From a virus, in the IMG/VR virus record IMGVR_UViG_3300043773_001988, positions 1-38,505 of that record: DNA of 38,505 bases; one strand, written 5' to 3'. Within the stretch, counting starts at the first letter, position 1; every line of letters starts with the position of its first letter. This document shows positions 3,321-37,576 of this stretch, one piece after another. A model generated the notes under the pieces. That model was not told the DNA's origin, made no database searches, and saw only the letters and a program-made list of their open reading frames with translations. Both the position numbers and the translations under genes were made by a program.

Positions 3321-3321
3321 C

Positions 3322-22301: not shown

Positions 22302-22669
22302 TGGCTACTTTCTCGCAATTACCGGGCACGCTGGACATCACCTTCGTCTCCGGCGACGAAGTTGCCGTGGCATTGGACTTTGATCGCGACCTCACCGGGT
22401 ACACGATCACGACGGCCGTCTACGTCACAGCCGTCTACGCCTCGGGCGGCGGCGGCACCGGGTTCGTGACAGGCATCGGCGAGACGGCGGCCACGTTCGC
22501 CATCTCGAACACAAACCTCGCGGCGGGTCAGATCACGATCGGTCTCTCCGAGGTTCAGACCGCCGCGCTCTCGCCGGCGATCGCCTACCGCTGGTACTTG
22601 CGGTGGGTTGATACCGGGCAGGTCACGAGGACCGTTCTCTCCGGCACCGTGACAGTGGCGAACCCATGA
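22301..22669 (+). CDS. BppU-like fibre-module protein, copy 1
   Basis: 122 residues. F-S-Q-L-P-G-T-L near the N-terminus, F-V-S-G-D, D-F-D-R-D-L-T-G-Y-T, and near the end YRWYLRWVDTGQVTRTVLSG. It is clearly paralogous to the gene at 33491. The 'G-D ... G-Y-T ... Y-x-W-x-L-x-W ... G-x-V-x-R-T-x-L-S-G' pattern resembles small beta-sandwich proteins found beside tail fibres (BppU N-terminal-like), which attach fibres to the tail. It abuts both neighbours. Confidence 0.65.
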   Translation: MATFSQLPGTLDITFVSGDEVAVALDFDRDLTGYTITTAVYVTAVYASGGGGTGFVTGIGETAATFAISNTNLAAGQITIGLSEVQTAALSPAIAYRWYLRWVDTGQVTRTVLSGTVTVANP

Positions 22670-24927
22670 GCATCAACGTCACGGTCGTCGGGACGACGAA
22701 CGTCGTTGCCAGCGTGGCCGAGACGACCATCGGCGTCTCCGTCGGCTCGCCGGGATCGGTAGACGTCGGCGTCGGGACGATGGTCGCCCAAGCCGTGACC
22801 GGCCTGCTCGTGGCCGGTGGGAACAACGTCACCGTCACGACCACCAGCGGCGTCTTCACGATCGCCGCCGCAGACGCCCCAGTCTCGAGCGTCAACGGGA
22901 AGACCGGGGCGGTCGTCCTGAACGCTACCGACGTCGGGGCCGCCAGCAACACACACGGCCACTCCTACGTCCAGAGCCTCAACAGCCTCACCGGGACGCT
23001 CAACGTCCTCGCCGGCAGCAACATCACGATCTCGACATCATCGAGCGGGATCACGATCGTCGGCTCGGCCGGAGGCGGTACGACCGGCGGGGCGGTCTCA
23101 AGCGTCAACGGCAGGACGGGGACGGTCACCCTCGTCGCATCCGACGTCTCCGCGGCCTCCTCGACGCACGCCCACTCCTACGTCCAGAGCCTGAACGCCC
23201 AGACCGGCACGCTCTCAATCGTGGCAGGCGACAACGTCACGATTTCGACGTCCGCCGGCTTCATCACGATCACGGGGTCTGCCGGTGGGACAGGCGGCGG
23301 CTCGGTGACCAGCGTCAATGGCAGGACCGGAGCCGTCACGCTGGTCTCGGCCGACGTGTCGGCCGCGAGCGCCGTCCACACGCACGTTGCCGCGAACATC
23401 ACGGACTTCACGACCGAGGCCGCAAAGGTCGGCCCCGTATCCTCTGTGAACGGGAGGACGGGCACTGTCACCCTCGTCGCCTCCGATGTCTCCGCAGCAT
23501 CGGCCAGCCACACGCACGTCGCAGCGAACGTGACAGACTTCGCGACCGAGGCAGCCAAAGTCGGCCCCGTGTCATCGGTGAACGGCAGGACCGGCACGAT
23601 CACGCTGGTCTCGACCGACGTCTCCGCGGCGAGTGCCAGCCACACGCACGTCGCCGCGAATATCACGGACTTCTCTACCGAGGCTGCGAAGGTCGGCCCC
23701 GTCTCCAGCGTCAATGGACGTACTGGCACGGTCACGCTCGTTGCCTCCGATGTCTCGGCCGCGAGTGCGAGCCACACCCACGTTGCCGCCAATGTGACCG
23801 ACTTCGTCACGGAAGCGACCAAATACGGCCCCGTGTCGAGCGTCAATGGACGCACCGGCACAATCACGCTGGTCTCAACGGACGTCTCGGCGGCCTCGGC
23901 GGTCCACACGCACGTCGCCGCGAATATCACGGACTTCGTGACGGAAGCGGCCAAGGTTGGCCCGGTCTCTAGCGTCAACGGCCGGACTGGCACGATCACG
24001 CTCGTGTCAACGGACGTCTCCGCGGCCTCCGCCAGCCACACCCACGTCGTTGCCAACATCACTGACTTCGGCGCCGGCGTGCTGGCGAACCAGTCGGTAT
24101 CCAGCGTCAACGGACGCACGGGCACGATCACGCTCGTCTCGACCGATGTCTCGGCGGCCTCCGCGAGCCACACCCATGTCGCTGCAAACGTCACGGACTT
24201 CGTGACCGAGGCCGCGAAGGTCGGCCCGGTATCGAGCGTCAACGGCAAGACCGGCACGATCACGCTCGTGGCGACCGACGTATCGGCAGCCCGAACCGTC
24301 CTCGCCGTCGAGACGCGAGGACCGCTGGCGATCGAGAACAACTACAACGCCGGCACGTCCGACATCGTGCGGATTTCGGCCACGGCCGCCACGGAGATCA
24401 CGGGCCTGTCGGGCGGTCAGTCCGGCGTCGTCAAGTTGCTCGTCAACGTCGGCACGAACGACGTCACGTTCGTCTCCGACTCCGTGGAGAGCGAGTCGTC
24501 GAACCGAATCACGATCGTCGGCGGCAACAAGAAACTCAGCCGCGGCGAGGCGGCGTCGGCGTTCTACGATCCGACGAGCAACATCTGGCGGATCATCAGC
24601 GACCCGCCGTCGGCTCCGGCGTACTCGTGGACAACTTTGTCCGTCACCGCCGCCCTCAACAACTACAACCCCGGCACGCACACCGTCCTGCGTCTCAGTG
24701 CGAACTCGGCGCATCTGGTGACCGGCTTCTCCGGCGGCGGCGAAGGCTCCATCCTTCGACTCATCAACGTCGCCACGCATACCGTCACGCTCGTCCACGC
24801 CTCGACGGCGAGCGACTCGTCCAACCGGCTCCTGCTCGACACAGGGACCGACCGCACGCTGGACGAGGATCAGCAGGCCGAACTGCTCTACGACCCGGTC
24901 TCTCTGCGCTGGCGGGTCACCCCGTGA
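22666..24927 (+). CDS. Tail fibre with tandem 44-residue repeats
   Basis: 753 residues. N-terminus (MSINVTVVGTTNVVASVAET) parallels the separate gene at 33811 and is probably the attachment part. A shaft follows with two ~70-residue units and seven exact 44-residue units, each starting V-S-S-V-N-G-R-T-G and containing a H-T-H motif, which in T4-type fibres coordinates metal along the trimer axis. The last ~200 residues hold two copies of an ~80-residue domain (NNYNAGTSDIVRISA and NNYNPGTHTVLRLSA), probably the receptor-binding tip. ATGA overlap with the previous gene, GTGA with the next. Confidence 0.88.
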   Translation: MSINVTVVGTTNVVASVAETTIGVSVGSPGSVDVGVGTMVAQAVTGLLVAGGNNVTVTTTSGVFTIAAADAPVSSVNGKTGAVVLNATDVGAASNTHGHSYVQSLNSLTGTLNVLAGSNITISTSSSGITIVGSAGGGTTGGAVSSVNGRTGTVTLVASDVSAASSTHAHSYVQSLNAQTGTLSIVAGDNVTISTSAGFITITGSAGGTGGGSVTSVNGRTGAVTLVSADVSAASAVHTHVAANITDFTTEAAKVGPVSSVNGRTGTVTLVASDVSAASASHTHVAANVTDFATEAAKVGPVSSVNGRTGTITLVSTDVSAASASHTHVAANITDFSTEAAKVGPVSSVNGRTGTVTLVASDVSAASASHTHVAANVTDFVTEATKYGPVSSVNGRTGTITLVSTDVSAASAVHTHVAANITDFVTEAAKVGPVSSVNGRTGTITLVSTDVSAASASHTHVVANITDFGAGVLANQSVSSVNGRTGTITLVSTDVSAASASHTHVAANVTDFVTEAAKVGPVSSVNGKTGTITLVATDVSAARTVLAVETRGPLAIENNYNAGTSDIVRISATAATEITGLSGGQSGVVKLLVNVGTNDVTFVSDSVESESSNRITIVGGNKKLSRGEAASAFYDPTSNIWRIISDPPSAPAYSWTTLSVTAALNNYNPGTHTVLRLSANSAHLVTGFSGGGEGSILRLINVATHTVTLVHASTASDSSNRLLLDTGTDRTLDEDQQAELLYDPVSLRWRVTP
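22882..24228 (+). repeat. Tandem coding repeats in fibre shaft
   Basis: Two longer units (22882-23094, 71 residues; 23095-23304, 70 residues) then 924 bases (23305-24228) that divide into exactly seven units of 132 bases, 44 residues each. A partial eighth follows at 24229. Units differ by synonymous and a few conservative changes, so the protein repeat is better kept than the DNA repeat. Two related units occur in the fibre at 34095. Confidence 0.92.
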
Positions 24928-26090
24928 AGCGCCGCGGCGTCGGGACACGCCTCCTGCGTGCGTGCGCCCTCTTGGCTCGGCGTTCCTTCGCCAGCCGCCG
25001 CCTCGAGCACCGCGAGCGGTGGGCGAACGAGAACGGCCTCGACAGGGACCGTGCCGTCCAGTGGGTCGTCGAGGAAGCCGCGAGGTTCGGCGTCCCCTGC
25101 GAAGAGGGCGTGGCCCTCCGCCTCTACGTCGCAGCGGCCCGGCACGCGATCCGGTCGCAGCGGTATCAGGTGGCCGCGCCGGAGCGGAGGCCGCGGACGG
25201 AGCGGACTGTGCTCCCCGGCGAACTGGCGGTCGTCACCTGTCACTTCAATCCGGCCGGCTACAGGTCTCTCAGGGACAACTACCTCCGATTCATGCACGA
25301 GATGCGGTGGTGGGGCGTGCCGACGTTCGTCGCCGAGGTCGCCTACGACGGGCAGGATTTCGTCGACAAAGACGCATTCCTGAAACTCCGCGGGACAGAG
25401 CGGAACGTCCTGTGGCAGAAGGAACGCCTGCTCAACCTGCTCGTCGAGAAACTGCCTGAGCAGTACGACAAGGTCGCTTGGATCGACGCGGACGTGCTGT
25501 TCTTCGACCGCTCGTGGATTCAACGCACACGCGAAAAACTGGAGTACGATCCGGTGATTCAACTGTGGAACCGCTGGCACTGCATCGACTCTGGCGGTCG
25601 CGTGGGCGAGGTGCTGTGGGGCGTCGGCGACGACGCATGGCGATACCTGTCCCGCCCGGCGTGTCCGGGCGGTGCGTGGGCTGCCCGCAGGTCGGTCTTC
25701 CCGCTCTACGACCGCCACATCCTCGGCTCCGGCGACGCGATGTCGCTGGTGGCATGGTGCGGCCGGCTGGACCGACTTGCGATCAAATACTCGAGCGAGG
25801 TCATGCGGGAGGACTTTCTCGGATGGGCCGATAACGCCTACCAGAAGGTGCAGGGGCACATCGGGACGCTCGATAGCGACGCGATCCATCTCCACCACGG
25901 ATCGAGGGCGCGGCGGCTCTACGTCGACCGCTGGAAGCCTGCCCTGAAGTGGGGCTTCGACCCGCGCCGGCACGTCGAGGTCGACGAGTCCGGCCTGCTA
26001 GCATGGACAGCGTCGGCCCCCCCGCAACTGCGAAAATGGGTCGCCGAATACTTCCTCGTCCGCGACGAGGATGGCGAAAATTCCACTTGA
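24924..26090 (+). CDS. Glycosyltransferase, GT-A type, next to fibre
   Basis: 388 residues from GTG 24924, overlapping the fibre stop (GTGA). The catalytic domain begins near residue 98 (GELAVVTCHFNPAGYRSLRD) with the D-x-D in VAWIDADVLFFD (D188, D190), preceded by QKERLLNLLVEKLPEQYDK and followed by PGGAWAARRSVF and GSGDAMSLVAW. The order fits a GT-A enzyme using a nucleotide sugar and divalent metal. The first ~95 residues are a basic helical segment of unknown role. Immediate coupling to the fibre suggests that the fibre, or a glycan tied to adsorption, is the target. Confidence 0.82.
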   Translation: MKRRGVGTRLLRACALLARRSFASRRLEHRERWANENGLDRDRAVQWVVEEAARFGVPCEEGVALRLYVAAARHAIRSQRYQVAAPERRPRTERTVLPGELAVVTCHFNPAGYRSLRDNYLRFMHEMRWWGVPTFVAEVAYDGQDFVDKDAFLKLRGTERNVLWQKERLLNLLVEKLPEQYDKVAWIDADVLFFDRSWIQRTREKLEYDPVIQLWNRWHCIDSGGRVGEVLWGVGDDAWRYLSRPACPGGAWAARRSVFPLYDRHILGSGDAMSLVAWCGRLDRLAIKYSSEVMREDFLGWADNAYQKVQGHIGTLDSDAIHLHHGSRARRLYVDRWKPALKWGFDPRRHVEVDESGLLAWTASAPPQLRKWVAEYFLVRDEDGENST

Positions 26091-26123
26091 CCGCCACTAG
26101 GCGCCCCAAAGACACTATTCACG

Positions 26124-26429
26124 ATGCCGGCGACGCACCACTTCCTGATCGCAGGCGCCCGCTGGGTGTGGCGGTACAGCCGCCTCCGCGGGCGTGCCGC
26201 CGGGTGGGCGTACCTTCCTGACCCAAACAAGCCCGGCGAGCCGTCGGTGCGGAAGGTCTTGATCGACTCGCGGCTGAAAGGTCGGACTCGCATGGAGACC
26301 GAAATCCACGAGGCGCTCCATGTGTGCTTTCCGCAGATGAGCGAGGAGACGATCACGGCGAGCGCCCGCGACGTGAGCAGAATCCTCTGGTTCCTCGGAT
26401 ACCGCCTCCAAGAGGACAAGCAGCCGTGA
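26124..26429 (+). CDS. Small zincin-like protein with HExxH
   Basis: 101 residues. ETEIHEALHVCFP contains H62-E-A-L-H66, the zinc-binding and catalytic signature of metallopeptidases, preceded by the strand RKVLIDSRLKG. A downstream SEETITASARDVSRILWFLG helix supplies acidic residues that could give a third ligand (several candidates). Similar short HExxH proteins occur in many phages without known substrate. It may cleave a virion protein or peptidoglycan-linked peptide. Starts 33 bases after the glycosyltransferase, and its stop overlaps the next start (GTGA). Confidence 0.65.
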   Translation: MPATHHFLIAGARWVWRYSRLRGRAAGWAYLPDPNKPGEPSVRKVLIDSRLKGRTRMETEIHEALHVCFPQMSEETITASARDVSRILWFLGYRLQEDKQP

Positions 26430-27037
26430 GCAACACGTACATCGTGGGCGCCGGCGGCTTCGGCCGCGAAGTGCTTCGCTGGGCACGGGACGCCGGCATC
26501 GACGTGGACGCCTTCCTCGACACGGCCGAGGGCGTCGCGTGCGGCCTGCCGATCCTGCCCGACGACCTCGTGTTTTCGCCGCGTGACGTCTTCCTGTGCG
26601 GCATCGGCGAGCCGGCTCTCAAGCGAATCGTCTGCGAGCGACTCCGCAGCCGCGGGGCGCGGTTCTGGACGCTCGTCCACCCGACCGCGATCGTCACCGA
26701 GCCGGCCGCGACGGGGGAGGGCTGCGTGATCTGCCCGCACGCGATCCTGAGCGTCGGGTCGTCCATCGGGCGTTTCGTGACGGTCAACTGCGCCGCGACC
26801 GTCGGCCACGACACGGTGACCGGCGACTACTGCTCGATCTCAAGCCACGCCGACATCTGTGGGCACGCGAGCCTCGGCGAGGGCGTCCTCGTCGGATCGC
26901 ACGCCAGCATCCTGCCGCACGCCCACGCCGGCGACTGGTCGATCGTGGGCAGCGGCAGCGTCGTCGTCCGCGAGGCGCCGGAGCGATCCACCGTCATGGG
27001 AGTCCCTGCGGCAGTTATCTACAGGAAGCCACAATGA
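26426..27037 (+). CDS. Sugar O/N-acyltransferase, NeuD/PglD family
   Basis: 203 residues from GTG 26426. The N-terminal Rossmann-like half opens YIVGAGGFGREVLRWARDAG (residues 5-24), the standard start of NeuD/PglD proteins. The C-terminal half is a left-handed beta-helix of hexapeptide repeats (ICPHAI, IGRFVTVN, DYCSIS, LGEGVLVG, SIVGSGS). The catalytic His in ATVGHDTVTGD is H128, in the family position. Family members pass an acetyl group from acetyl-CoA to an amino sugar or sialic acid; related beta-helix enzymes (LpxA, LpxD) use acyl-ACP. The next gene is an acyl carrier protein, which makes an ACP donor plausible. Confidence 0.88.
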   Translation: MSNTYIVGAGGFGREVLRWARDAGIDVDAFLDTAEGVACGLPILPDDLVFSPRDVFLCGIGEPALKRIVCERLRSRGARFWTLVHPTAIVTEPAATGEGCVICPHAILSVGSSIGRFVTVNCAATVGHDTVTGDYCSISSHADICGHASLGEGVLVGSHASILPHAHAGDWSIVGSGSVVVREAPERSTVMGVPAAVIYRKPQ

Positions 27038-27252
27038 GCGAGTTCTGCGAGGCGCTCGACCAACTGGTCGAACAGCCGGCCGGCACCAGCCAGCCGGAGA
27101 TGTACCTAAACCACCTCGCCGGGTGGGACTCCATGAGCGCGATGGGGTTTATGGCGATGGCCGACAAGAAGTACGGCGTGATCGTGAGCGCCGCACGGCT
27201 CATGGAAGCGAAGACCGTCGGCGACTTGGCCGCACTCGTGGGAATCCAATGA
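27034..27252 (+). CDS. Acyl carrier protein
   Basis: 72 residues. The phosphopantetheine site is G-W-D-S33-M, with S33 as the attachment Ser, followed by the recognition helix S-A-M-G-F-M and the final helix TVGDLAALVG. The W-D-S form, not the G-A-D-S-L of primary fatty-acid carriers, is common in specialised ACPs of glycan and secondary-metabolite loci. No phosphopantetheinyl transferase is visible here, so host AcpS or Sfp would have to activate it. ATGA overlaps on both sides place it in the core of the cassette. Confidence 0.88.
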   Translation: MSEFCEALDQLVEQPAGTSQPEMYLNHLAGWDSMSAMGFMAMADKKYGVIVSAARLMEAKTVGDLAALVGIQ

Positions 27253-27794
27253 GACAGTTCACGCACGACTGGCTGCCTGAGTCGCTATCGAAGCGGTGGC
27301 GGGAGTTCGTGCTCCCGCGACTCAAGCATCCGCTGCGCTGGCTGGAACTCGGCTCATACGAGGGCCGCTCGGCGTGCTGGGTGATCGACAACGTGCTCGA
27401 GGACGAGGACGTCTTGGTCTGCGTCGATCACTGGGTGAACGCCGACGCGGAGGCGCGATTCGACCAGAACACGGCTGGCCGGACGGAGAAGGTGAAGTCG
27501 CGGACGACGCAATACCTCGCTCGCGCGATCGCTGCCGGCGACAGTTTTGACGTCGTCTACATCGACGCCGACCACGAGGCCAAAAACGTCTTCAAGGATG
27601 CGGCGATGACGTGGCCGCTCCTGCCGGTCGGAGGCATCGGCATCTTCGACGACTACCGCTGGCAGATGCCCGCCGAGAAGTCGCACCTCCTGCCGCCGAA
27701 GCCGGCGATCGACGACTTCCTCGAGGTCTACGCGGGCTACATCGACGTCCTGCACAAGGACTACCAAGTCATCTTTCAGAAGGTGGGCCGATGA
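27249..27794 (+). CDS. Class I SAM-dependent methyltransferase
   Basis: 181 residues. Motif I LELGSYEGRSACW (residues 33-44) begins the Rossmann fold, VCVDHW is the acidic second strand, FDVVYIDADHEAKNVFKD the fourth, and GGIGIFDDYRW the fifth. This is the Methyltransf_24 type, whose members often modify sugars or small phenolic acceptors; D-A-D-H and D-D-Y could bind a metal. It probably O-methylates a glycan or the acyl product of the cassette. Coupled by ATGA to the ACP and to the LamG-like gene. Confidence 0.87.
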   Translation: MRQFTHDWLPESLSKRWREFVLPRLKHPLRWLELGSYEGRSACWVIDNVLEDEDVLVCVDHWVNADAEARFDQNTAGRTEKVKSRTTQYLARAIAAGDSFDVVYIDADHEAKNVFKDAAMTWPLLPVGGIGIFDDYRWQMPAEKSHLLPPKPAIDDFLEVYAGYIDVLHKDYQVIFQKVGR

Positions 27795-28483
27795 GTCTCT
27801 TGTCGTTGATAGCAAGGCCGCGGTGGCTGCGGCCAGCGGCGATCGAGGGCGACCCGTTCTTCGAGGACGTCCTCTTGCTCCTGCACATGAACGGCACGGA
27901 CGGCGGGACGACGTTCACGGATTCAAGCCGTTTCGCGCGCACCGTGACACGGTCGGGGGCGACGACGTCGAAGACGCACCGCAAGTTCGGCGACGCCAGC
28001 ATGAGCGTGACATCCTTTCAGAGTGTGTCCGTACCGGCGAGCACCGACTTCGGCCTCGCGGGCGACGATTTCACGGTCGAGGCGTGGGTGCGGCCGACGC
28101 TTGTCAATGGCCGACACGGCATCGCGGACTTCGGGTCCAGCAATCACTTCATCTTTGAGGTGTCCGACGCGAGCAAGTTCCGAGTGTTTCTGTGGAACGG
28201 CGGCGGGTTCACCATCATCTCAGGCGCGACAACGGTCGTGGCGAATGCGTGGTATCACGTCGCCGTCACCCGTTCCGGCACGACCTTGAAACTCTGGGTG
28301 AACGGCACCGAAGACGCGAGCGCCGGTTCGGCGAGCGGCCCACCGGACTCGTCATACCCAGTTCGTGTCGGCCTTACGCAGGCGAGCGGTTTCGCCGGCT
28401 ACATCGACGAGTTCCGCATCACGCGGCAGGCCCGCTATTCGGCGGCGTTCTCCGTGCCAGTGAAGCCATTCCCAGACAGGTGA
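27791..28483 (+). CDS. LamG/concanavalin-like lectin domain protein
   Basis: 230 residues. FEDVLLLLHMNGTDGGTTF and T-D-S-S-R-F-A-R, then FTVEAWVRPT, AWYHVAVTRSGTTLKLWVNG and FAGYIDEFRITRQARYSAAF are the standard milestones of the LamG_3 jelly-roll fold, here complete. Such domains bind carbohydrates and appear in phage fibres. Lying inside an enzymatic operon, it may be a virion protein whose gene shares the transcript, or a glycan-binding helper. The start ATG overlaps the methyltransferase stop. Confidence 0.85.
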   Translation: MSLLSLIARPRWLRPAAIEGDPFFEDVLLLLHMNGTDGGTTFTDSSRFARTVTRSGATTSKTHRKFGDASMSVTSFQSVSVPASTDFGLAGDDFTVEAWVRPTLVNGRHGIADFGSSNHFIFEVSDASKFRVFLWNGGGFTIISGATTVVANAWYHVAVTRSGTTLKLWVNGTEDASAGSASGPPDSSYPVRVGLTQASGFAGYIDEFRITRQARYSAAFSVPVKPFPDR

Positions 28484-28487
28484 GAGC

Positions 28488-29423
28488 GTGCCAATCCAAG
28501 GCGTCGCGATCCGCGACATCGCCGTGGCCGTGCCTTCGACAGTGCGAGATCAGTCGCGCTGGGGCGCCGCGGCGTCGAAACTTGAGGCCGCCACCGGCGT
28601 CTGCGAGCGTCGTGTCGTCGACCGCCTGACGCTCACCGACTTGGCCGAGGCCGCGTGCCGCGAGGTGCTCGGCCGGGCGGTTCAGGCGATCGTCGTCGTC
28701 ACGCAGACGCCGGACCAGCGGATTCCGCCGGTCGCGAACGTCCTGCACGGAAGGCTCAACCTCGGCACGGCGTGCGCCGCGTTCGACGTGAACCAAGGGT
28801 GCTCCGGCTACACATACGGCCTCGCCGTGGCGGCTGGCCTAGCCGCAGCAGGCGTGCCTCGCGTCCTCTTGGTCGCCGGCGACTGCCTGTCTACCGTCGT
28901 CTCGCCGAACGACCGTGCGACCGAGCCTCTATTCGGAGACGCGGTGAGCGCGACGATCCTCGAGCGGGACGACGACGCGCCGCCACTGCACGTCGCCTTC
29001 GGCAGCGACGGGAGCGGGGCGGAGCATCTGTCGCTCGCCCACGGCGACACGTCGTGCCTCAAGATGAACGGCGCCGAGGTCTTCGAGTTCGCCATGCGGA
29101 CGGTGCCGATGATGGTCACCGAGTCGCTCGCGGCGGCCGGCTGGACGATGGACACGGTCGACCAGATCGTCCCGCACCAGCCAAACCAGTTCATGCTGCG
29201 GCACCTACGCGAGAAGTGCGGCGTGCCGGAGTCGAAGTGGGTCGACGGCGTCGTTCGGCACTTCGGCAACGTGTCGAGCGCGTCGATCCCGCTGGCGCTA
29301 GTGACCTGCGGAAGCAAGGCGAAGACTGTCATGGCCGGATTCGGCGGTGGCTGGTCGTACTGCGCCGTCGCTGCCGACCTGTCCACGACGAGGCTCCACG
29401 ACCTCGTGGAGGTCGCCGAGTGA
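28488..29423 (+). CDS. 3-oxoacyl-ACP synthase III-like (KAS III)
   Basis: 311 residues, the length of bacterial FabH. The Cys-His-Asn triad is complete: C105 in DVNQGCSGYTYGL, H230 in IVPHQPNQFM, N261 in FGNVSSASIPLAL. LFGDAVSATIL and the end GFGGGWSYCAVA are also standard. KAS III enzymes join an acyl-CoA with malonyl-ACP to give a 3-oxoacyl-ACP; cousins of the fold esterify or transfer acyl groups. With an ACP and a FabG-like reductase beside it, short 3-hydroxyacyl-ACP is the simplest predicted product. GTG start, 4 bases after the LamG stop; GTGA overlap with the reductase. Confidence 0.92.
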   Translation: MPIQGVAIRDIAVAVPSTVRDQSRWGAAASKLEAATGVCERRVVDRLTLTDLAEAACREVLGRAVQAIVVVTQTPDQRIPPVANVLHGRLNLGTACAAFDVNQGCSGYTYGLAVAAGLAAAGVPRVLLVAGDCLSTVVSPNDRATEPLFGDAVSATILERDDDAPPLHVAFGSDGSGAEHLSLAHGDTSCLKMNGAEVFEFAMRTVPMMVTESLAAAGWTMDTVDQIVPHQPNQFMLRHLREKCGVPESKWVDGVVRHFGNVSSASIPLALVTCGSKAKTVMAGFGGGWSYCAVAADLSTTRLHDLVEVAE

Positions 29424-30151
29424 GATACCTCGTGACCGGAGGGTCCAGCGGCATCGGGGCCGCCACGGCGAGGCTCTTGGCAGCCGGGGGCCACGACGTC
29501 TACCTGCTCGGCCGCGACTACGGCCGCCTGCGGGAAGTCCACGACGCTCTGCCGGCCGGAAACCACGGCTGGAAGAGCATCGACCTCGTGTCGCTTGGCG
29601 ACCGCACCGACGACGTGCTCGCGGACATCGCAGCGGTCCACGGGAAGTTCGACGGCGTCGTCCACGCCGCCGGCATCCACTCGCTGATCCCCCTACGATA
29701 CCAGACGCACGCCAAAGCGGACGAGATGATCGCGGCGAACTACCACACGGCGTGGCACGTCGCGAAAGCGTTCCGGCAGCCGGCCGTGCGGGCCGGCGGG
29801 GCCGACGCGATCGTGTTCGTCGCAAGCGTGGCCGGGATCGTCGGGCAGGCAGCCGCGAGCGCCTACGCAGCGTCGAAGGCCGCGGTGCTCGGGCTGACCA
29901 AGGCGCTGGCGGTCGAACTGGCATCCTCCGGCATCCGGGTCAACGCCGTCGCCCCGGGCGTCGTCAGGACGCCGATGCAGGAGCGGCTCGAGCACACGAT
30001 GTCTCCGACGCAGTGGCAGGCCGTGGTCGACGACCACATCCTCGGCCTCGGCGAGCCGGAGGACGTCGCCGAGGCGATCCAGTACCTCCTGCGTCAGAAG
30101 TGGACGACGGGGACCATCCTCACGATCGACGGGGGAATGACCGCACGATGA
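29420..30151 (+). CDS. SDR, FabG-like 3-oxoacyl-ACP reductase
   Basis: 243 residues from GTG 29420. Cofactor motif TGGSSGIG (residues 6-13), then VHAAG (81-85), catalytic S136 in FVASVAG, Y149 and K153 in YAASK, and the family ending RVNAVAPGVVRTPM and TILTIDGGM. An Arg/Asp pattern after strand 2 (LLGRDYGRL) hints at NADPH. FabG-like enzymes reduce 3-oxoacyl-ACP to the 3-hydroxy form, fitting the KAS III upstream; action on a sugar is the alternative. It is linked by GTGA and ATGA overlaps. Confidence 0.9.
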   Translation: MRYLVTGGSSGIGAATARLLAAGGHDVYLLGRDYGRLREVHDALPAGNHGWKSIDLVSLGDRTDDVLADIAAVHGKFDGVVHAAGIHSLIPLRYQTHAKADEMIAANYHTAWHVAKAFRQPAVRAGGADAIVFVASVAGIVGQAAASAYAASKAAVLGLTKALAVELASSGIRVNAVAPGVVRTPMQERLEHTMSPTQWQAVVDDHILGLGEPEDVAEAIQYLLRQKWTTGTILTIDGGMTAR

Positions 30152-31212
30152 TCCCGGCCGCCTACTACGTTTCCGAGGAGCAGTACGCACGCGAGGTGAC
30201 GGCGCTCGCGAACTCCGTCTGGACTCCGGTCTGCATGGCGAACGAGATTGCCGGAGACGGCGACTACGTCGTCCGCGGGAAAGTCATCGTCCAGAACGTC
30301 GGCGGCGAACTGAAGGCGTTCTTGAACGTGTGCCCGCACCGTCTCAACAGGCTGGTCTCGAAGCCCTGCGGAACCGGCCCGCTTGTCTGCGGCTACCACG
30401 GCTGGGAGTTCGGGCCGGACGGCCTCCCGTGCCGGGTGCCGAAGCGGCCCAGTTTCGACGGCGTGAACCTCGCAGAGCACGGACTCGCCGTGTACGAGGC
30501 GGCACGGTGCGGCAACCTCGTGTTCGTCTGCCGCACGAAGGCGATCGAACTGGAGGCGTGGCTCGGAAATGCTTGGGGGACGATCGCCGCGATGACCGAC
30601 GCCTGCGGCGAGAAACTCGACACAAACCGCATCTGGATGCGGTGCAATTGGAAGATCGCCGTCGAGAACACGCTCGAGGCGTACCACGTCGGCCACGTCC
30701 ACCCGGAGACGTTCCACCGACTCGGGGCGAACGGCGGCGAGTTCTCCTTCGCCGGCCCGCACTCGTCGTGGTCGACGCCCCTGTCGGCGAAGACGACGGC
30801 GTGGCTCGAATCGATGGAAGACGTGTTCGCCTCGCGGCCGTACAAACCGGCAGGCTACGTCCATCAACTGGTCTTCCCGCACTGCACGATCGCGAGCGCG
30901 GCAGGCATGAGCGTATCGGTCCAGTTCTTCGCCCCGGCCGGCGTCGGCGAAACGGAGTTCACGTCGCTGGTCTACGCGACGAAGGTCTGCGACCTCCCGC
31001 CGGCACAGGCGGAACGCCGCGAGGTGTTCAACAAGTCGGTCGTGGACTTCAACCGGGCCGTGTTCGCCGAGGACGCCGCAGTTTGCGAGAGCGTCCACGC
31101 CGGTGCCTGCGACGCCGCTGGTTCGGGCGTGGAAGCGATCCTGTCAGAGGACGAGGAGCGTGTCGGGCATCACATCAGCGCACTCCTGATGGCGTGCGAC
31201 GGTCTTTCGTGA
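30148..31212 (+). CDS. Rieske non-haem iron oxygenase
   Basis: 354 residues, normal for an oxygenase alpha subunit. The [2Fe-2S] Rieske site is C62-P-H64 and C81-G-Y-H84, 16 residues between. The mononuclear iron site is in NWKIAVENTLEAYHVGHVHP, with H180 and H185 at the usual spacing and E177 in the bridging position; an E-D-A-A-V-C-E segment near the C-terminus offers the acidic third ligand. Such enzymes hydroxylate, demethylate or desaturate. No ferredoxin or reductase gene is here, so host electron carriers would be needed. Substrate unknown; the acyl-ACP product or the sugar are the candidates. Confidence 0.9.
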   Translation: MIPAAYYVSEEQYAREVTALANSVWTPVCMANEIAGDGDYVVRGKVIVQNVGGELKAFLNVCPHRLNRLVSKPCGTGPLVCGYHGWEFGPDGLPCRVPKRPSFDGVNLAEHGLAVYEAARCGNLVFVCRTKAIELEAWLGNAWGTIAAMTDACGEKLDTNRIWMRCNWKIAVENTLEAYHVGHVHPETFHRLGANGGEFSFAGPHSSWSTPLSAKTTAWLESMEDVFASRPYKPAGYVHQLVFPHCTIASAAGMSVSVQFFAPAGVGETEFTSLVYATKVCDLPPAQAERREVFNKSVVDFNRAVFAEDAAVCESVHAGACDAAGSGVEAILSEDEERVGHHISALLMACDGLS

Positions 31213-31220
31213 GGTGCAGC

Positions 31221-31481
31221 ATGGACGAGAAGCAGTTGTCAGCGGATGACCTGATCGAACGAGTCGCGTCCCGCGTGGACACGACGCCGCACGTCAAGCC
31301 GTGGTGGCAGCGGCTCACGCCGGAGCAGGCGGAGCAGGTTCTGCCGCTCCGCGAGGCGTACTTTGCGGGCCGGTTCGGCAAGAGGGAGATCACGGCGTGC
31401 CGGGCGATCTCGGCGACGCTGGGCGAACTGGGAATCACGATCGGACCGCAAGGAGTGAAGGCATGGCTCAGGAGGACTTGA
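31221..31481 (+). CDS. Small HTH-like hypothetical protein
   Basis: 86 residues. The second half, FGKREITACRAISATLGELG then GPQGVKAWLRR, looks like a helix-turn-helix, with K-A-W-L-R at the recognition end. It may be a DNA-binding regulator or packaging accessory. Starts 8 bases after the Rieske gene and overlaps the phosphoesterase start by 19 bases. No family named with confidence. Confidence 0.6.
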   Translation: MDEKQLSADDLIERVASRVDTTPHVKPWWQRLTPEQAEQVLPLREAYFAGRFGKREITACRAISATLGELGITIGPQGVKAWLRRT

Positions 31482-32635
31482 TCGCCAAGGTCGCGGCCAA
31501 ACTGCCACAGCCTGAACCCGCCCCTGACGCGGAGCAGGTCACGACCAAGCGCGAAGGCGACGTGCTCGAGGCCCGCAGTACGAGCCGCCGCATCAAGACG
31601 GTCGAAGACCTGCTCAGGCACATTGAGGCTGACTTGGAACGCTATGAGGTGGCGGCCTCTGAGGCCACCAAGTGGGAGTGCGCGTCAAGCGATGGAAAGG
31701 GCGGGACGACCGTCACGGAATTGCACCGCGTCTTCGTCCGGCTGAAGCCGAAGGCGGGGCCGACGACACGCGAGGTCGTGGAGGCGATGATCGCGGGGGC
31801 CGTCGGCCTCAAGCAGAGGCCGGTGAGCAGGCACAAGAAGCCGAAGGGCGAACTGTGGCAGGTCATCGTCGTGGCGGACGTCCATGTAGGCAAGTATGCG
31901 TGGAGCAAGACAACCGGCCACGGTGACTACGATCTCGACATCGCCGACCGCGTCATCCGGCAGACGTCGAACGAACTGATCGCCGTCGGCAACGAGTACA
32001 AGCCTGCAAGGCGGAGCATCTTCTACCTCGGCGACCTCTTTCACTACGACTCGCCTCATGGGACCACCACCAGCGGAACGCAGTTGGAACGCGACGGCCG
32101 GCTCCAGAAGATGATCGAGGTTGGCAGCGACGCGCTTCTTTCAATTGTCGAGCAGTCCGCCGCGACGACGCCGACCGACGTTCACGTCGTGAACGGGAAC
32201 CATGACGAGACACTGAGTTGGTGCTTTCAACGCATCCTGTTCGAGCGGTTCCGAAACGACCAGCGCGTCGCCGTGAGCATGAAGTTCACCGGCCGGCAGT
32301 ACGTCACACACGGGGCGAACCTGCTCGGCATCGCCCACGGCCACCGGGCGAAGCGGAAGTTGCCGCAGATCATGGCGATCGAGGCCGCCGGCGACTGGGC
32401 GAGGTGCCCGTATCGCGAGTACCACACCGGCCACTTTCACTCGCAGGCCGCGGAGTGGCAGCGGCCGATCGAGACGATCGAGTCGGTCATCGTCCGAACC
32501 GCTCCCAGCGTCGGGGCAACTGACGATTGGCACTCTGAGCACGGGTTCATCGGCGCCCGCCGGGCGATGGAGACGTTCCTCTACCGCCCAGAAGGCGGCC
32601 TGACGGCCATGCACGTCGCCGGGGTGAAGCCATGA
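31463..32635 (+). CDS. Metallophosphoesterase
   Basis: 390 residues. The calcineurin-like motifs are all present: VVADVHVGK (D139, H141), YLGDLFHYD (D191), VVNGNHDE (N246, H247, D248), GIAHGHRAKRK, and YHTGHFHS, the two late His sites. The first 130 residues are a helical, variable extension. Members act as nucleases, phosphatases or phosphodiesterases; in phages they often accompany DNA metabolism genes. ATG 31463 is supported by AAGGAG at 31450-31455. The stop overlaps the kinase start (ATGA). Confidence 0.9.
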   Translation: MAQEDLIAKVAAKLPQPEPAPDAEQVTTKREGDVLEARSTSRRIKTVEDLLRHIEADLERYEVAASEATKWECASSDGKGGTTVTELHRVFVRLKPKAGPTTREVVEAMIAGAVGLKQRPVSRHKKPKGELWQVIVVADVHVGKYAWSKTTGHGDYDLDIADRVIRQTSNELIAVGNEYKPARRSIFYLGDLFHYDSPHGTTTSGTQLERDGRLQKMIEVGSDALLSIVEQSAATTPTDVHVVNGNHDETLSWCFQRILFERFRNDQRVAVSMKFTGRQYVTHGANLLGIAHGHRAKRKLPQIMAIEAAGDWARCPYREYHTGHFHSQAAEWQRPIETIESVIVRTAPSVGATDDWHSEHGFIGARRAMETFLYRPEGGLTAMHVAGVKP

Positions 32636-33183
32636 TAATCGGCCTCTGCGGCGCCGCCGGGTGCGGCAAGAACACGGTGGCGGAGATGCTGGCGGCACGG
32701 CACGGCGCCGGCGTCTTCGCGTTCGCTGACCCTTTGTACGCTGCGATCTCGGCGATCACGGGGATGTCGATCGCGGATTTGCAGGATCGCCGGCACAAGG
32801 AACGCGACCTGCCGTGGCTGCCGGCCAGCCCGCGGCGGCTCCTCCAGACCATCGGCACCGAGTGGGGCAGGGAGACGATCCACCCGGAAATCTGGGTCAT
32901 GGCAACGATGAAGCGGATCGAGGACTCCGAGGCGGCGCTCGCTGTGATCACGGACGTCCGGTTCGACAACGAGGCCGAGGCGATCCATGCCCGCGGCGGG
33001 TACGTCTGGCGGGTCGTCCGGCCCGGTGCTGGATTGGCAGGGTCTGCCGGGTCGCACTCAAGCGAGCGTGGCATCGAGGCCAGCCTCGTGGACGACGAGG
33101 TGCTCAACGACGGGGATTTGTCGGTCCTCGCTGGCCGCGTGGATGCTGCGTGGTCAAGGCTTCAAAACGATACAATGAAATAA
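32632..33183 (+). CDS. Deoxynucleoside monophosphate kinase-like
   Basis: 183 residues. P-loop G-A-A-G-C-G-K-N-T (residues 7-15) at the N-terminus, FAFADPLYAAI, then RRLLQTIGTEWGRETIHPEIW, and AVITDVRFDNEAEAIHARGG, all characteristic of phage dNMP kinases (T4 gp1-like). It would phosphorylate dNMPs for phage DNA synthesis. Placing a nucleotide gene among fibre and glycan genes is unusual in layout but not rare in phages. Followed by a hairpin. Confidence 0.87.
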   Translation: MIIGLCGAAGCGKNTVAEMLAARHGAGVFAFADPLYAAISAITGMSIADLQDRRHKERDLPWLPASPRRLLQTIGTEWGRETIHPEIWVMATMKRIEDSEAALAVITDVRFDNEAEAIHARGGYVWRVVRPGAGLAGSAGSHSSERGIEASLVDDEVLNDGDLSVLAGRVDAAWSRLQNDTMK

Positions 33184-33208
33184 CGCCGCATTCTGCCTTT
33201 TGCGGCGT
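33183..33208 (+). terminator. Hairpin after dNMP kinase, possible terminator
   Basis: ACGCCGCA (33183-33190) and TGCGGCGT (33201-33208) form a perfect 8-bp stem with a 10-base loop, starting on the last base of the TAA stop. The T-run lies in the loop, not after the stem, so a standard rho-independent terminator is doubtful. It could be a partial terminator or RNA processing site marking the end of the cassette unit before the second fibre module. Confidence 0.4.
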
Positions 33209-33221
33209 CACGAGGCGTCCC

Positions 33222-33814: not shown

Positions 33815-34152
33815 GCATCACTGCCAGCGTCACGGGAACGCGGATTTCGGCGACCGTCAGCGGCGCCGGCGTCTCGGCGACCGTCGGCAGCGGAGCCGTC
33901 GCGGCAGCGGTCACCGGCGGCATCGGGCCGCAGGGGCCGTCCGGCGACATCGGGGCGACTGGAGGCGCCACGGCACTGAGCCAACTTACGGACGTTCAGA
34001 TCGACTCGCCCGCCGACGGCGACGTGCTGCGGTACTCAAACGGCAAATTTCGCGACTTCGCTGAATCGAACCTAGTGGATGGAGGTAACTTCGCATGGCT
34101 CGCATTCGTATCCGCCGCAGCACAGGCTCTAGCGCTCCTGAGTCACTGCTGA
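33811..34152 (+). CDS. Fibre N-terminal attachment-like protein
   Basis: 113 residues from GTG 33811. MSITASVTGTRISATVSGAG parallels the first residues of the 753-residue fibre at 22666, then a short collagen-like GGIGPQGPSGDIGATGG and a T-D-V-Q-I-D-S-P-A-D-G-D-V-L-R-Y segment common in fibre heads. Here the fibre head is a separate short protein. The last 19 codons overlap the next gene in another frame, and the Shine-Dalgarno of that gene (GGAGGT 34081-34086) lies inside this one. Confidence 0.6.
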   Translation: MSITASVTGTRISATVSGAGVSATVGSGAVAAAVTGGIGPQGPSGDIGATGGATALSQLTDVQIDSPADGDVLRYSNGKFRDFAESNLVDGGNFAWLAFVSAAAQALALLSHC

Positions 34153-35522
34153 ATGCGGAACTGGCCTATGCGGAAGCAGCCGGCACGGGCGGTGCCGGCA
34201 CGCTCTACATCGGCACCGGCTCGAGCGGAACGAACGCCGCGAACGTCGTCGCGATCGGCGGCGGCGGCGCGTTCATCTCGATCGTCACCGTCCGCGAGGC
34301 CAACAAGGTGCTCGCCGGGCCGACGACCGGAGCGAATGCTGCTCCGACGTTTCGGCTCCTCGTGGCCGACGACATTCCGTCACTGACCAGCGTCAAGATC
34401 ACAGACTTCACGACCGCCGCGGCACTTGTCGGCCCGGTCTCCAGCGTCAATGGGAAGACCGGGACGGTCAGTCTGACGTCTGTAGACGTTTCAGCCGCGT
34501 CCGCCGTCCACACTCACGTTGCCGCGAACGTGACCGACTTCGCGACCGAGGCCGCCAAGTACGGCCCGGTATCAAGCGTCAACGGAAAAGTCGGCACCGT
34601 CAGCCTGACGTCGGTCGATGTTTCCGCCGCGTCCGCCGTCCACACGCACGTTGCCGCAAACGTGACCGACCTCGAGACCACGGTCAAGGCGTACAGCCTG
34701 ACTTCGTTCGCGGCGCCGACGGCGTCGCTGACGATGAACAGCCAGAAGATCACGAACCTCGCGGCCCCGACAGATGCAAACGACGCCGCGAGGAAGGCGG
34801 ACGTTGATGCTGCAAGGAACGGCCTCGACGTCAAGCAGTCGGTGCGTGCCGCGACCACGGCGAACATCGACCTGTCGAGCGCACTTGAGAACGGCGATGC
34901 GATCGACGGCGTGACGCTCGTCACGGGCGACCGGGTGCTCGTCAAAAATCAGGACACGGCCTCGCAAAACGGCATCTACGTCGTGCAGGCGTCCGGGGCG
35001 GCGGTGCGGGCCACCGACTTCGACGCTGACGCCGAGGTGACGCCGGGCGCGTTCACATTCGTCGAGGAAGGCACAACGAACGCGGACACGGGCTGGGTGC
35101 TGACCACAAACGGCTCCATCACGGTCGGCACGACGTCGCTGGCGTTTGCCCAGTTCTCCGGCGCAGGAAACATCACGGCCGGAGACGGCCTGACAAAGGA
35201 CGGGAACACGATCAACGCCGTCGGCACGGCGGATCGGATCAGCGTTGCCGCCGACTCCATCGACATCTCGACGGCCTACGCCGGCCAGACGTCGATCACG
35301 ACGCTCGGAACGGTAACGACAGGAACATGGTCGGCGACGGCGATCGGGCCGACAAAGGGCGGCACGGGACTCACGACCGTCCCGAAGGGGAGCGTCCTCG
35401 GGTCGAACACGCTCGACACGGTCACGGCGGTGCAGGGCGGCACGACCGACGGCATCCTGACCTACTCGGCGTCAGGCACGTCGGTGGCGTTCCTTGAGAC
35501 TCTCGATGGAGGGTCTTTTTAG
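34095..35522 (+). CDS. Tail fibre protein
   Basis: 475 residues. The N-terminus, IRIRRSTGSSAPESLLNAELAY-like, resembles the Mtd-type anchor domain (also at the start of the next gene). Two units of the V-S-S-V-N-G-K-x-G shaft repeat with H-T-H follow (about residues 116-200), then the widely seen fibre domain with LTMNSQKITNLAAPTDANDA and GDRVLVKNQDTASQNGIYVV, and a Gly/Thr-rich end with GTWSATAIGPTKGGTG. A strong GGAGGT lies 8 bases before ATG. Probably a trimeric fibre or a shaft partner of the S74 fibre after it. Confidence 0.85.
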   Translation: MARIRIRRSTGSSAPESLLNAELAYAEAAGTGGAGTLYIGTGSSGTNAANVVAIGGGGAFISIVTVREANKVLAGPTTGANAAPTFRLLVADDIPSLTSVKITDFTTAAALVGPVSSVNGKTGTVSLTSVDVSAASAVHTHVAANVTDFATEAAKYGPVSSVNGKVGTVSLTSVDVSAASAVHTHVAANVTDLETTVKAYSLTSFAAPTASLTMNSQKITNLAAPTDANDAARKADVDAARNGLDVKQSVRAATTANIDLSSALENGDAIDGVTLVTGDRVLVKNQDTASQNGIYVVQASGAAVRATDFDADAEVTPGAFTFVEEGTTNADTGWVLTTNGSITVGTTSLAFAQFSGAGNITAGDGLTKDGNTINAVGTADRISVAADSIDISTAYAGQTSITTLGTVTTGTWSATAIGPTKGGTGLTTVPKGSVLGSNTLDTVTAVQGGTTDGILTYSASGTSVAFLETLDGGSF

Positions 35523-37576
35523 TGCCAACGCCAGTCCAACTCAAGCGCAACGGCACGCCGGGAGCGTCGGCCCCATCGTCGCTCCTGCACGGCGAGTTGG
35601 CACTGAACTACGGAGACGCTCGCATATTCTGGCGAGACGCCTCGAACGTCATCCAGTCGTTCACGTTCCAGAGTTATGCGCTCGCCAGCCACACGCATTC
35701 GATCTCCGATGTGACCGGCTTGCAGACGGCCCTCGACGGCAAGGCGTCGTCGTCGCACACCCACGCCGCCAGCGACATCACCTCCGGCACGCTGGATATC
35801 GCCCGCATCGCCAACGACGCCGTCACGTACGCCAAGATTCAAAACGTCAGCGCCACCGACCGCCTGCTCGGTCGCTCGTCTGCGGGTGCAGGCGACGTGG
35901 AGGAGATCACCTGCACGTCGTTCGGTCGCTCGCTGATTGACGACGCCGACGCCGCGACGGCACGCACCACGCTCGGCGTGCAGCCGACGGCGAGTCCAGC
36001 GTTCACTGGCGCGGCGACGTTCGCCAACACGGGCGACGTGGTTCCGCTGACCGTGACGAACACAGGAACCGTCAACTCGTTCGTCGTCAATGACGCGAGC
36101 GGCGACTCCGACCCATTTGTGATCGATGCGGCTGGGCGCATTGCGATCGGCGCTACCGCTGCGTTTTCCGACTCGCACAAGTTCGCCATACTTGGCGGCC
36201 TACCTTCATCGGCAGGCGTGACTGCCGGATTTGTGTTGCGTGTATTGGTTCCGTCCAGCAGCACAAACAACTTCATATCTTGTTTAAGCAACATTGGAAC
36301 AGAGGCGGCTTCCTATACGGTCAACTCGCTTGAGCATTACGCGGCAGCGCAGCAGTCATTGGGCGCTGGATCGGCCATTGGGAGTCAGTACGGTTTCGTC
36401 GCGAGGGATTCACTCACTGGAGCCACAAACAATTTCGGTTTCTGGAGCAACATCGCCAGTGGAACCGGGCGGTGGAACTTCTACGCCAACGGGACGGCGC
36501 AAAACTATTTTGGCGGGCAGGTCACCGTCGCATCGCCGCTCGTCCTCACTGGCACCGTCGCAGGCAACGTGCGGCAACTGCGGATGCAGACAAGCGGCAG
36601 CACTCGCTGGGAAGTGGGTCCGGGATTCGACGCGGAGAGCGGCAGCAACGTCGGGTCCACGTTCTGGGTCACGCGATGGTCGGACGCTGGCGTGTTTCTT
36701 GGCACGCCGATCTCCATCGCACGGGCGACGGGTAACGTCACGCTAGAGAATCAACTGCTTGTATCCGCAGGCAGCGTCTCAGCGTGCAGCGTGGCAGCGT
36801 CTGGCGATCCCAATACTGGACTGTATTTCCCGGCAGCGAACGTCGCGGCGATTGTGACGGACGGCAGCGAGCGGGTGCGGGTGTCGTCGGCTGGCAACGT
36901 CACCATCGGGGAAGCCAACTCAGCAAACACGCGGCTGATGGTTGCCGGCGGGTCTTCTAACATTTCGTCTGCGCGTGCCACGTATGAAGGCACGCTGCAA
37001 ATCAACGAGAGCAGCCTGACGACTCTGGAATCAATCGGCGGGATTGAGTTCAAGACGAGCGTTTTCGGAAGCGGCTACGGCGTCAAGATTCTCGGCGCAG
37101 ACGACGGAGCGCTTATCGTTGGCAACCGCGCCAACTCTGCGACATGGTCTGAGTCGATGCGCATTACTCAGAACCGCGAAATGCTCATCGGCACCACAAC
37201 CGACAACGGTGCCTACCTCCTCCAAGTCAACTCCCAGATTTACGCCACCAACGCGACGATCGCTACGTCCGACGCACGGTTCAAGACCAATGTCGAAGCG
37301 TTGACCGACGCCACTAGCGTCATCGAATCGCTGCGGCCCGTTGCGTTCGACTTCATTCCGCAGACCGACCGCAACTTCGCCACCGAGCGTCAGGTCGGAC
37401 TGATCGCACAAGAGGCGCAGGCGGCGCTCGCAGGCACCGACTACGCCGACAGCGTGGTCGCTCAGTGTGGCGACCATCTTGGGCTGGCCTACGAGAAACT
37501 GGTGCCGGTGTTGATTAAGGCACTCCAAGAGAGCAACGCACGCATCGCCGCACTAGAGGAGAGGATCAATGGCTGA
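35522..37576 (+). CDS. Tail fibre/spike with S74 chaperone domain
   Basis: 684 residues from GTG 35522, sharing a base with the previous TAG. N-terminal anchor (PVQLKRNGTPGASAPSSLLH), a H-T-H repeat region (SHTHSISDVTGLQTALDG), FADPFVIDAAGRIAIG, then a variable middle that is AT-richer than the rest, and a C-terminal Peptidase_S74 intramolecular chaperone: S583-D584 in ATSDARFKTNVE, RPVAFDF, GLIAQEAQ, and a final coiled coil ESNARIAALEERI. By family, the chaperone drives trimerisation and cuts itself off before the Ser. Likely receptor-binding protein. Confidence 0.92.
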   Translation: MPTPVQLKRNGTPGASAPSSLLHGELALNYGDARIFWRDASNVIQSFTFQSYALASHTHSISDVTGLQTALDGKASSSHTHAASDITSGTLDIARIANDAVTYAKIQNVSATDRLLGRSSAGAGDVEEITCTSFGRSLIDDADAATARTTLGVQPTASPAFTGAATFANTGDVVPLTVTNTGTVNSFVVNDASGDSDPFVIDAAGRIAIGATAAFSDSHKFAILGGLPSSAGVTAGFVLRVLVPSSSTNNFISCLSNIGTEAASYTVNSLEHYAAAQQSLGAGSAIGSQYGFVARDSLTGATNNFGFWSNIASGTGRWNFYANGTAQNYFGGQVTVASPLVLTGTVAGNVRQLRMQTSGSTRWEVGPGFDAESGSNVGSTFWVTRWSDAGVFLGTPISIARATGNVTLENQLLVSAGSVSACSVAASGDPNTGLYFPAANVAAIVTDGSERVRVSSAGNVTIGEANSANTRLMVAGGSSNISSARATYEGTLQINESSLTTLESIGGIEFKTSVFGSGYGVKILGADDGALIVGNRANSATWSESMRITQNREMLIGTTTDNGAYLLQVNSQIYATNATIATSDARFKTNVEALTDATSVIESLRPVAFDFIPQTDRNFATERQVGLIAQEAQAALAGTDYADSVVAQCGDHLGLAYEKLVPVLIKALQESNARIAALEERING

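Follow-up and report, generated by a model that had tools for sequence, protein, structure and literature searches.

Vibrio cholerae O1 makes perosamine from GDP-mannose and N-acylates it with tetronate, and a tetronate gene is needed for phage ICP1 (PMC3441752). In the flagellin glycosylation islands of Aeromonas group II and the Enterobacteriaceae, an acyl carrier protein (ACP) and a 3-oxoacyl-ACP reductase are encoded beside sugar genes (PMC7874193, PMC4875605). Among phages, lipopolysaccharide gene clusters and ACP/ACPS are reported from cyanophages (PMC3037559), fabH is stated to be absent from Roseobacter prophages carrying fabG-acpP-fabF (PMC8224337), and a further report gives ACP at 2/153 (PMC10452541). 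What is said here of cited papers holds for the available parts of their texts. In this paper we analyse IMG/VR virus contig IMGVR_UViG_3300043773_001988 (38,505 bases; the whole stretch is called the window, and is G000 in our numbering), in which profile matches identify terminase, portal, protease, capsid and tail-fibre genes, and which also carries a cassette whose core genes encode a NeuD-family N-acyltransferase, an ACP, a 3-ketoacyl-ACP synthase III (KAS III), a short-chain dehydrogenase/reductase (SDR) and a Rieske oxygenase.

The cyanophage and Roseobacter prophage sets contain phage glycan genes or ACPs, but no NeuD-ACP-KAS III-SDR-Rieske set appears in the available text, and no phage with that set was found described in the literature searched, mostly at abstract level. 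The flagellin islands differ from the cassette in having an AMP-dependent synthetase or CoA ligase, LuxE and LuxC, and the word "Rieske" is absent from both main texts. V. cholerae O1 resembles the proposed product in its hydroxylated short acyl on the amino group of perosamine; it differs in being a host locus and not a phage one. When 50,697 phage records were searched by tblastn, KAS was matched in 17 and Rieske in 9, in every case at less than 60% identity; these were set aside as presumed bacterial carry-over, the one inspected being labelled UNVERIFIED_ORG and unannotated. As phage-borne glycan genes, the cassette consists of parts known in bacteria in a new combination, in a slot with exchangeable acyl chemistry. 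We propose that the slot encodes a module that N-acylates a nucleotide amino sugar made for the phage fibres, a full explanation to which we assign an even chance; that the cassette N-acylates an amino sugar, e.g. GDP-perosamine, is probable.

Gene content and conservation of the core

All seven open reading frames (ORFs) at 26426-31212 were confirmed on the + strand. These ORFs and the genes that flank them are as follows.

26124..26429, + strand: small conserved HExxH protein, left border of the slot, 98 relatives in viral contigs, no family match
26426..27037, + strand: NeuD/PglD/VioB-family hexapeptide N-acyltransferase, GTG start, core gene 1 (TIGR03570)
27034..27252, + strand: ACP, Ser33 the phosphopantetheine site, core gene 2 (PF00550, PP-binding, over cut-off)
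27249..27794, + strand: class I methyltransferase, movable accessory gene (PF13578, Methyltransf_24)
27791..28483, + strand: LamG fibre-like protein, accessory, fast changing (PF13385, Laminin_G_3; PHROG tail/virion structural matches)
28488..29423, + strand: KAS III-like condensing enzyme, core gene 3 (PF08545 and PF08541, ACP_syn_III N and C)
29420..30151, + strand: SDR, FabG-like reductase, GTG start, core gene 4 (PF13561; PF00106, adh_short; phrog_3142, FabG-like)
30148..31212, + strand: Rieske non-haem iron oxygenase, terminal oxygenase type, core gene 5 (PF00355; PF00848, Ring_hydroxyl_A)
31221..31481, + strand: small conserved gene, right border of the slot, sole gene in empty slots
31463..32635, + strand: metallophosphoesterase/exonuclease-like phage gene, right of the slot (phrog_704)

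A sequence-only reading of the window had described seven consecutive genes joined mostly by 4-base overlaps and built as one unit. The seven genes and their family matches stand. Overlaps of 4 bases are present at five junctions (NeuD/ACP, ACP/methyltransferase, methyltransferase/LamG, KAS/SDR and SDR/Rieske), but LamG and KAS are separated by a 4-base gap; upstream of the cassette there are further overlaps between the HExxH gene and NeuD and between a fibre gene and its neighbour. The single unit has to be narrowed to five genes. KAS and Rieske scans of IMG/VR yielded 11 other contigs, and the order NeuD-ACP-KAS-SDR-Rieske is preserved in every one of them, one contig ending within the Rieske gene, so that the recurrence of gene order in other phage contigs, proposed in that reading as a check, is found for the core. 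ACP and NeuD alignment scans, run separately, recovered the identical 11 contigs, to which NeuD added one more that ends within NeuD. Only the window and 4 of the 11 relatives have the methyltransferase and LamG genes between ACP and KAS, and because the other seven relatives lack them there the seven-gene unit was rejected. Relatives of the methyltransferase (42-45% identity) are found upstream of the slot in L009, L017, L018 and L019, and none was found in the stretch examined of L004 or L006. LamG is 73% identical to its counterpart in L003 although the flanking genes are 97-98% identical, a variability as expected for a receptor-facing part.

Core identity to the window across the 11 contigs ranges from 47 to 100%. 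Eight relatives are close (KAS 94-100%), among them L002, which is 100% identical to the window, and three are distant (KAS 63-65%, Rieske 47-48%). Ratios of nonsynonymous to synonymous substitution (dN/dS) between the window and six close relatives, a comparison that omits L002 and L007, were 0.019-0.123 for NeuD, 0-0.086 for ACP, 0.044-0.195 for KAS, 0.057-0.103 for SDR and 0.088-0.106 for Rieske. These low values indicate that the core genes are under purifying selection and maintained as working proteins.

The catalytic and ligand residues named for the five enzymes in the sequence-only reading are all present, and are invariant in the aligned phage copies (5 to 7 rows per protein). NeuD scores above the curated TIGR03570 cut-off (195.1 vs 160.8 bits), its closest Protein Data Bank (PDB) entry is VioB (7txp, 94 bits), and the catalytic H128 is kept in 6/6 aligned rows; S33 of the ACP is unchanged in 5 rows. 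The intact triad Cys105-His230-Asn261 places the condensing enzyme in the KAS III superfamily, with 4efi and 3gwa as best PDB matches, but it falls below the cut-offs for housekeeping FabH (158.3 vs 292.1 for NCBIfam fabH, 190.5 vs 249 for PRK09352). The SDR has its Ser-Tyr-Lys as S136/Y149/K153, unchanged in 5 aligned rows. In the Rieske protein the cluster ligands C62/H64/C81/H84, the iron ligands H180/H185/D309 and the two-domain fold identify the class; its AF2 model is confident (predicted local distance difference test, pLDDT, 86.7) and is closest among solved structures to terephthalate dioxygenase (7q06, Z 34.0), with CntA (6zgp) at Z 32.3. Three residues ahead of the first iron His, at position 177, all 9 aligned phage and bacterial rows have Glu. 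The equivalent position is Asp in most relatives and Glu in CntA. A search of PHROGs gave no match for KAS, ACP or Rieske at E 0.001. No PADLOC model matched any of 10 proteins, and a known anti-phage defence system was therefore rejected.

The slot in the larger phage family

The slot between the HExxH gene and the metallophosphoesterase gene was surveyed in the best 80 of 98 HExxH relatives and the best 80 of 442 metallophosphoesterase relatives, together with the cassette loci. Intervals were counted only when both flanks lay inside the stretch examined, and identical intervals once (L007 and L009 share one). Nine distinct intervals, of 3.8-5.0 kb, contain the cassette and 40 distinct intervals contain no cassette gene; 38 of the 40 measure about 0.22-0.27 kb and contain the small right-border gene alone, a gene present in 49/49 distinct intervals. 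The remaining two (L142 and L143; 0.67 kb) contain the small gene and a GNAT acetyltransferase (PF00583, 54 bits) that begins, like NeuD, by a GTGA overlap; the two GNATs are identical and count as one case. Cassette, GNAT and near-empty intervals share the same border genes; the cassette has thus been inserted at a single site, and among the loci seen it is present all or none.

Amino-sugar genes in phage relatives

A DegT aminotransferase gene was found in 5 of the 12 cassette records searched, and the same five carry tandem dehydratase/epimerase genes. The first tandem gene, tested in L006, is a GDP-mannose 4,6-dehydratase (GMD; TIGR01472, 487 bits against a cut-off of 415), and the second, tested in L079, is GDP-fucose synthase-like but under cut-off. 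The closest solved relative of DegT is perosamine synthetase (216 and 203 bits in the two tested), the next differently named PDB entry after the 216-bit match scoring 179 bits. Seven cassette records have neither DegT nor dehydratase, one being the window (38.5 kb) and the others six fragments that measure 12.6-28.4 kb, so that GMD and DegT are found together in 5/6 long cassette-bearing contigs. Both are also present in a contig with the slot GNAT, G799, whose GMD scores 493 bits against the cut-off of 415.

For comparison we took every cassette-less contig of at least 42 kb among the best-80 flank-gene listings, 20 in all. GMD occurs in G799 only and DegT in four; a KAS scan of the 20 gave no match, in a scan without a positive control of its own. 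A dehydratase thus accompanies a filled slot in 6/7 long contigs and is found in 0/19 other long relatives, which include 10 contigs showing one flank only (the slot was measured in the other 10 of the 20). A GMD was found in only one other long relative, where the GNAT (L143:8339-8773) occupies the cassette slot, and L286-L288 (contigs G804, G815 and G817) are cassette-less loci with DegT but no GMD. At the right end of the window, about where relatives have GMD, no Pfam or PHROG model matches the ORF at 37881-38504, and no copy of it was found among the loci compared.

Bacterial kin

A pattern-seeded, and so not random, KAS search gave 43 bacterial loci, to which L111 and L131 were added by later searches and are counted outside the 43. 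All five families occur within 5 kb in 6/43, and a Rieske gene within 5 kb in 12/43, 7 of these 12 also having DegT in the stretch examined. Loci in which the five families are clustered as in the phage are those of Janthinobacterium (L026), Undibacterium (L023), Duganella (L027), Acidobacteriaceae (L033 and L111), Massilia (L035) and Stenotrophobium (L042). DegT is nearby in L026, L027, L033, L042 and L111, and was not seen in the stretch examined of L023 and L035. These loci differ from the cassette in being chromosomal, in gene order (the phage has NeuD first) and in commonly having a second KAS. For bacterial ACP-KAS III-SDR-NeuD-Rieske loci no characterised product was found in the available text of the literature.

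In Janthinobacterium L026 a DegT gene comes after the set, with flagellin roughly 5 kb beyond. The chromosomal Acidobacteriaceae locus L111 (4569-11145) contains the run AcpS-KAS-SDR-NeuD-ACP-KAS-Rieske-DegT and the best bacterial Rieske match found (260 bits); its ACP and a sugar transferase were read by eye, the phage ACP model giving no match to that ACP. The L111 run would be a good model for working out an uncharacterised bacterial pathway. In Asticcacaulis L022 the neighbours of NeuB and a cytidylyltransferase are ACP, KAS, Rieske and SDR; PseG and PseH were read there by eye only, the PseG candidate having no Pfam match. A Planctomycetota locus (L131, G233 C37) resembles the phage in its families, which run ACP-KAS-SDR-NeuD-KAS-DegT, and holds the best bacterial ACP match among the loci scanned (68 bits), but differs in having no Rieske match and in lying on a 493 kb contig. 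These bacterial loci indicate that the Rieske oxygenase is a recurrent partner of the acyl set in bacteria rather than a phage oddity.

In a KAS tree of 41 rows, made by a quick method and containing no labelled housekeeping FabH set, the phage copies form one clade that joins the close and distant groups (Shimodaira-Hasegawa-like approximate likelihood ratio test, SH-aLRT, 100) and stands beside copies from Asticcacaulis, Herbaspirillum and Rhodospirillales (92).

Fibre genes and an adjacent probable glycosyltransferase

Upstream and downstream of the slot the window encodes fibre proteins.

22666..24927, + strand: repeat-rich tail-fibre protein, C-terminal type linked to the glycosyltransferase (PF12789, phage tail repeat)
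24924..26090, + strand: probable GT-A glycosyltransferase, 4-base overlap with the fibre gene (predicted model)
34095..37576, + strand: two more fibre/tail genes, downstream of the slot (PHROG tail-fibre and virion matches)

The protein at 24924..26090 has no Pfam, PHROG or NCBIfam match. Its predicted model is weak (pLDDT 49.9), and the listed Foldseek matches are chiefly GT-A enzymes, together with nucleotidyltransferases of similar fold; the model hints at a glycosyltransferase (GT), which is the probable identity. The C-terminal type of the fibre and the GT co-occur: all 8 loci with that C-terminus have the GT and none of the 4 without it does, in a count for which 4.4 kb upstream was examined in L018 and 2.5 kb in L004, and from which L007 (58 bases upstream) was omitted. 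Fisher values of the co-occurrence counts (0.002 and 3e-5) ignore kinship and are hence too small. In L019, a distant relative, this GT is missing, and the variable upstream module there holds genes of families GT25 and GT61: a GT25 plus sulfotransferase ORF at 2325-4022 and a GT61/Stealth-like ORF at 4019-5632, then a methyltransferase and a GalE-like epimerase. The fibre repeats at 22882-24291 recur at 34395-34679 in a second, downstream fibre gene, and fibres may recombine.

On the + strand at 22400-33600 no terminator-like site was found, in a weak scan that gave fewer sites than shuffles and so says little. A promoter scan gave no site on either strand, where shuffles gave 0.8.

Host

The capsid protein of the window matches proteins in 18 of 246 genomes of Planctomycetota, the phylum of Pirellula, at up to 200 bits (34% identity, nearly full-length), compared with at most 49 bits in the Janthinobacterium phylum (18/249) and 37 in the Opitutia phylum (2/240). 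The two best matches are on 8.3 and 4.7 kb contigs of one Pirellula genome, contigs that might be phage strays; the match ranking after them, at 137 bits, lies past base 114,000 of a longer contig. The related phage record G005 encodes a tyrosine integrase, which is a weak host clue, with matches in 23/149 Planctomycetota genomes and a best score of 115 bits. From the capsid matches the host of these phages is likely a planctomycete. To our knowledge planctomycete phages are little studied.

Discussion

The sequence-only reading had proposed that the phage makes an acyl-ACP for transfer to an amino sugar. That proposal is strengthened by the DegT and GMD genes of the relatives, by the GNAT in the slot and by bacterial loci with DegT, flagellin or NeuB, and on these grounds an amino-sugar N-acylation module is the most likely function. 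In such a pathway the phage ACP would be charged by a host transferase. From their families and intact active sites, KAS III would join a short acyl-CoA to ACP-bound malonyl, and reduction of the resulting 3-keto group by the SDR would yield a short 3-hydroxyacyl-ACP. From there NeuD may transfer the acyl onto a GDP-amino sugar, perosamine for example, at its 4-amino group. Five relatives have the genes with which that sugar could be made from GDP-mannose, through GMD and the perosamine-synthase-like DegT; in the window phage it may be supplied by the host or by genes that lie beyond the record. Oxygen may be added to the acyl chain or to the acylated sugar by the Rieske enzyme, with electrons from host reductases, and the movable methyltransferase would cap some versions of the product. 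The sugar would most likely be attached to the phage's own fibres by the GT translated in overlap with the fibre gene.

The same acyl-amino-sugar chemistry could instead feed a product into host surface polysaccharide, so that an altered receptor blocks superinfection or keeps progeny from sticking to debris. This is the strongest rival, although as a whole it is not the outcome we expect. It has a precedent in V. cholerae O1, where the perosamine-tetronate O1 antigen is used by ICP1 and a tetronate-gene mutant is ICP1-resistant (PMC3441752), and the integrase of G005 makes lysogeny possible. L004 and L006, moreover, keep the core yet have no GT beside the fibre, which speaks for a host-surface target and against fibre decoration. 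The overlap of GT and fibre genes, the link between fibre C-terminus and GT, and the weak scan in which no + strand terminator-like site was found favour virion decoration; the + strand location in the fibre region and the start-stop overlaps likewise fit late better than lysogenic expression, and neither a flippase nor an O-antigen polymerase was recognised among the cassette genes. Given amino-sugar N-acylation, we therefore lean slightly towards the fibre as target.

Several observations weigh against amino-sugar N-acylation for the phage fibres. The GT identification depends on a weak model. DegT scores best with LegC- and PseC-like NCBIfam models but stays under every equivalog cut-off, and in the stretches examined only 14/43 bacterial KAS loci show it; G804, G815 and G817 have it without GMD and without the cassette KAS. 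The window itself, possibly a fragment, has no DegT (PF01041) match, PF01370 matches its SDR only, and past a small ORF common to the GMD-bearing relatives it enters an ORF not found in the loci compared. Nor are the relatives independent, four GMD-bearing contigs forming one close group. No AcpS was recognised in the cassette, and no Rieske reductase partner was recognised there, a genome-wide search not having been made. Finally, the Rieske tree leaves the close and distant phage groups unjoined, with weak support (66/74). That tree therefore does not show a single origin of the phage Rieske.

Two further explanations dispense with an amino sugar, and both are improbable. ACP, KAS III and a FabG-like reductase are fatty-acid enzymes, and Roseobacter prophages with fabG-acpP-fabF have been reported (PMC8224337), so the cassette might be an auxiliary kit that raises host lipid synthesis. 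NeuD and Rieske are outside that pathway, however, and both are present in 11/11 relatives (one Rieske cut by a contig end); the KAS is far under the fabH cut-offs and forms its own clade in the 41-row tree, bacterial homologues stand in amino-sugar loci, and a GNAT replaces the cassette in a relative. Equally unlikely is an acyl group meant for a small molecule or modified DNA, with no glycan involved. A deoxynucleotide kinase gene and the exonuclease-like gene adjoin the cassette region, but the exonuclease-like neighbour is present at all 38 empty slots (by construction of the count) and so belongs to the phage backbone, and NeuD is in the sugar acyltransferase subfamily. Nothing was found in favour of an assembly join or bacterial contamination of the viral bin, which is scarcely credible: the gene order is repeated in 11 other contigs with different record ids, these show phage genes to left and right wherever they reach far enough, and there is a matching empty site.

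On the preferred explanation, amino-sugar N-acylation for the fibres, a more specific picture can be drawn, and we offer it tentatively as one less likely than not. A slot between two conserved genes, which is empty or holds one acetyltransferase or a five-enzyme acyl factory, would set the phage's GDP-amino-sugar chemistry, and the resulting oxidised N-acyl sugar would decorate the tail fibres as an exchangeable serotype, unlike O-antigen conversion, where it is the host that is changed. Phages may in this way swap custom sugar coats. The natural exchange of the five-gene cassette for a GNAT, with dehydratase and aminotransferase retained, lets the function of the cassette be tested directly by genetics. 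If the proposal is true, it would suggest a function for the Rieske oxygenases of bacterial flagellin and polysaccharide loci, and it would give a handle on how planctomycete phages meet their hosts. It would also mean that phages go beyond borrowed host sugars and carry custom acyl biosynthesis for a sugar of their own.

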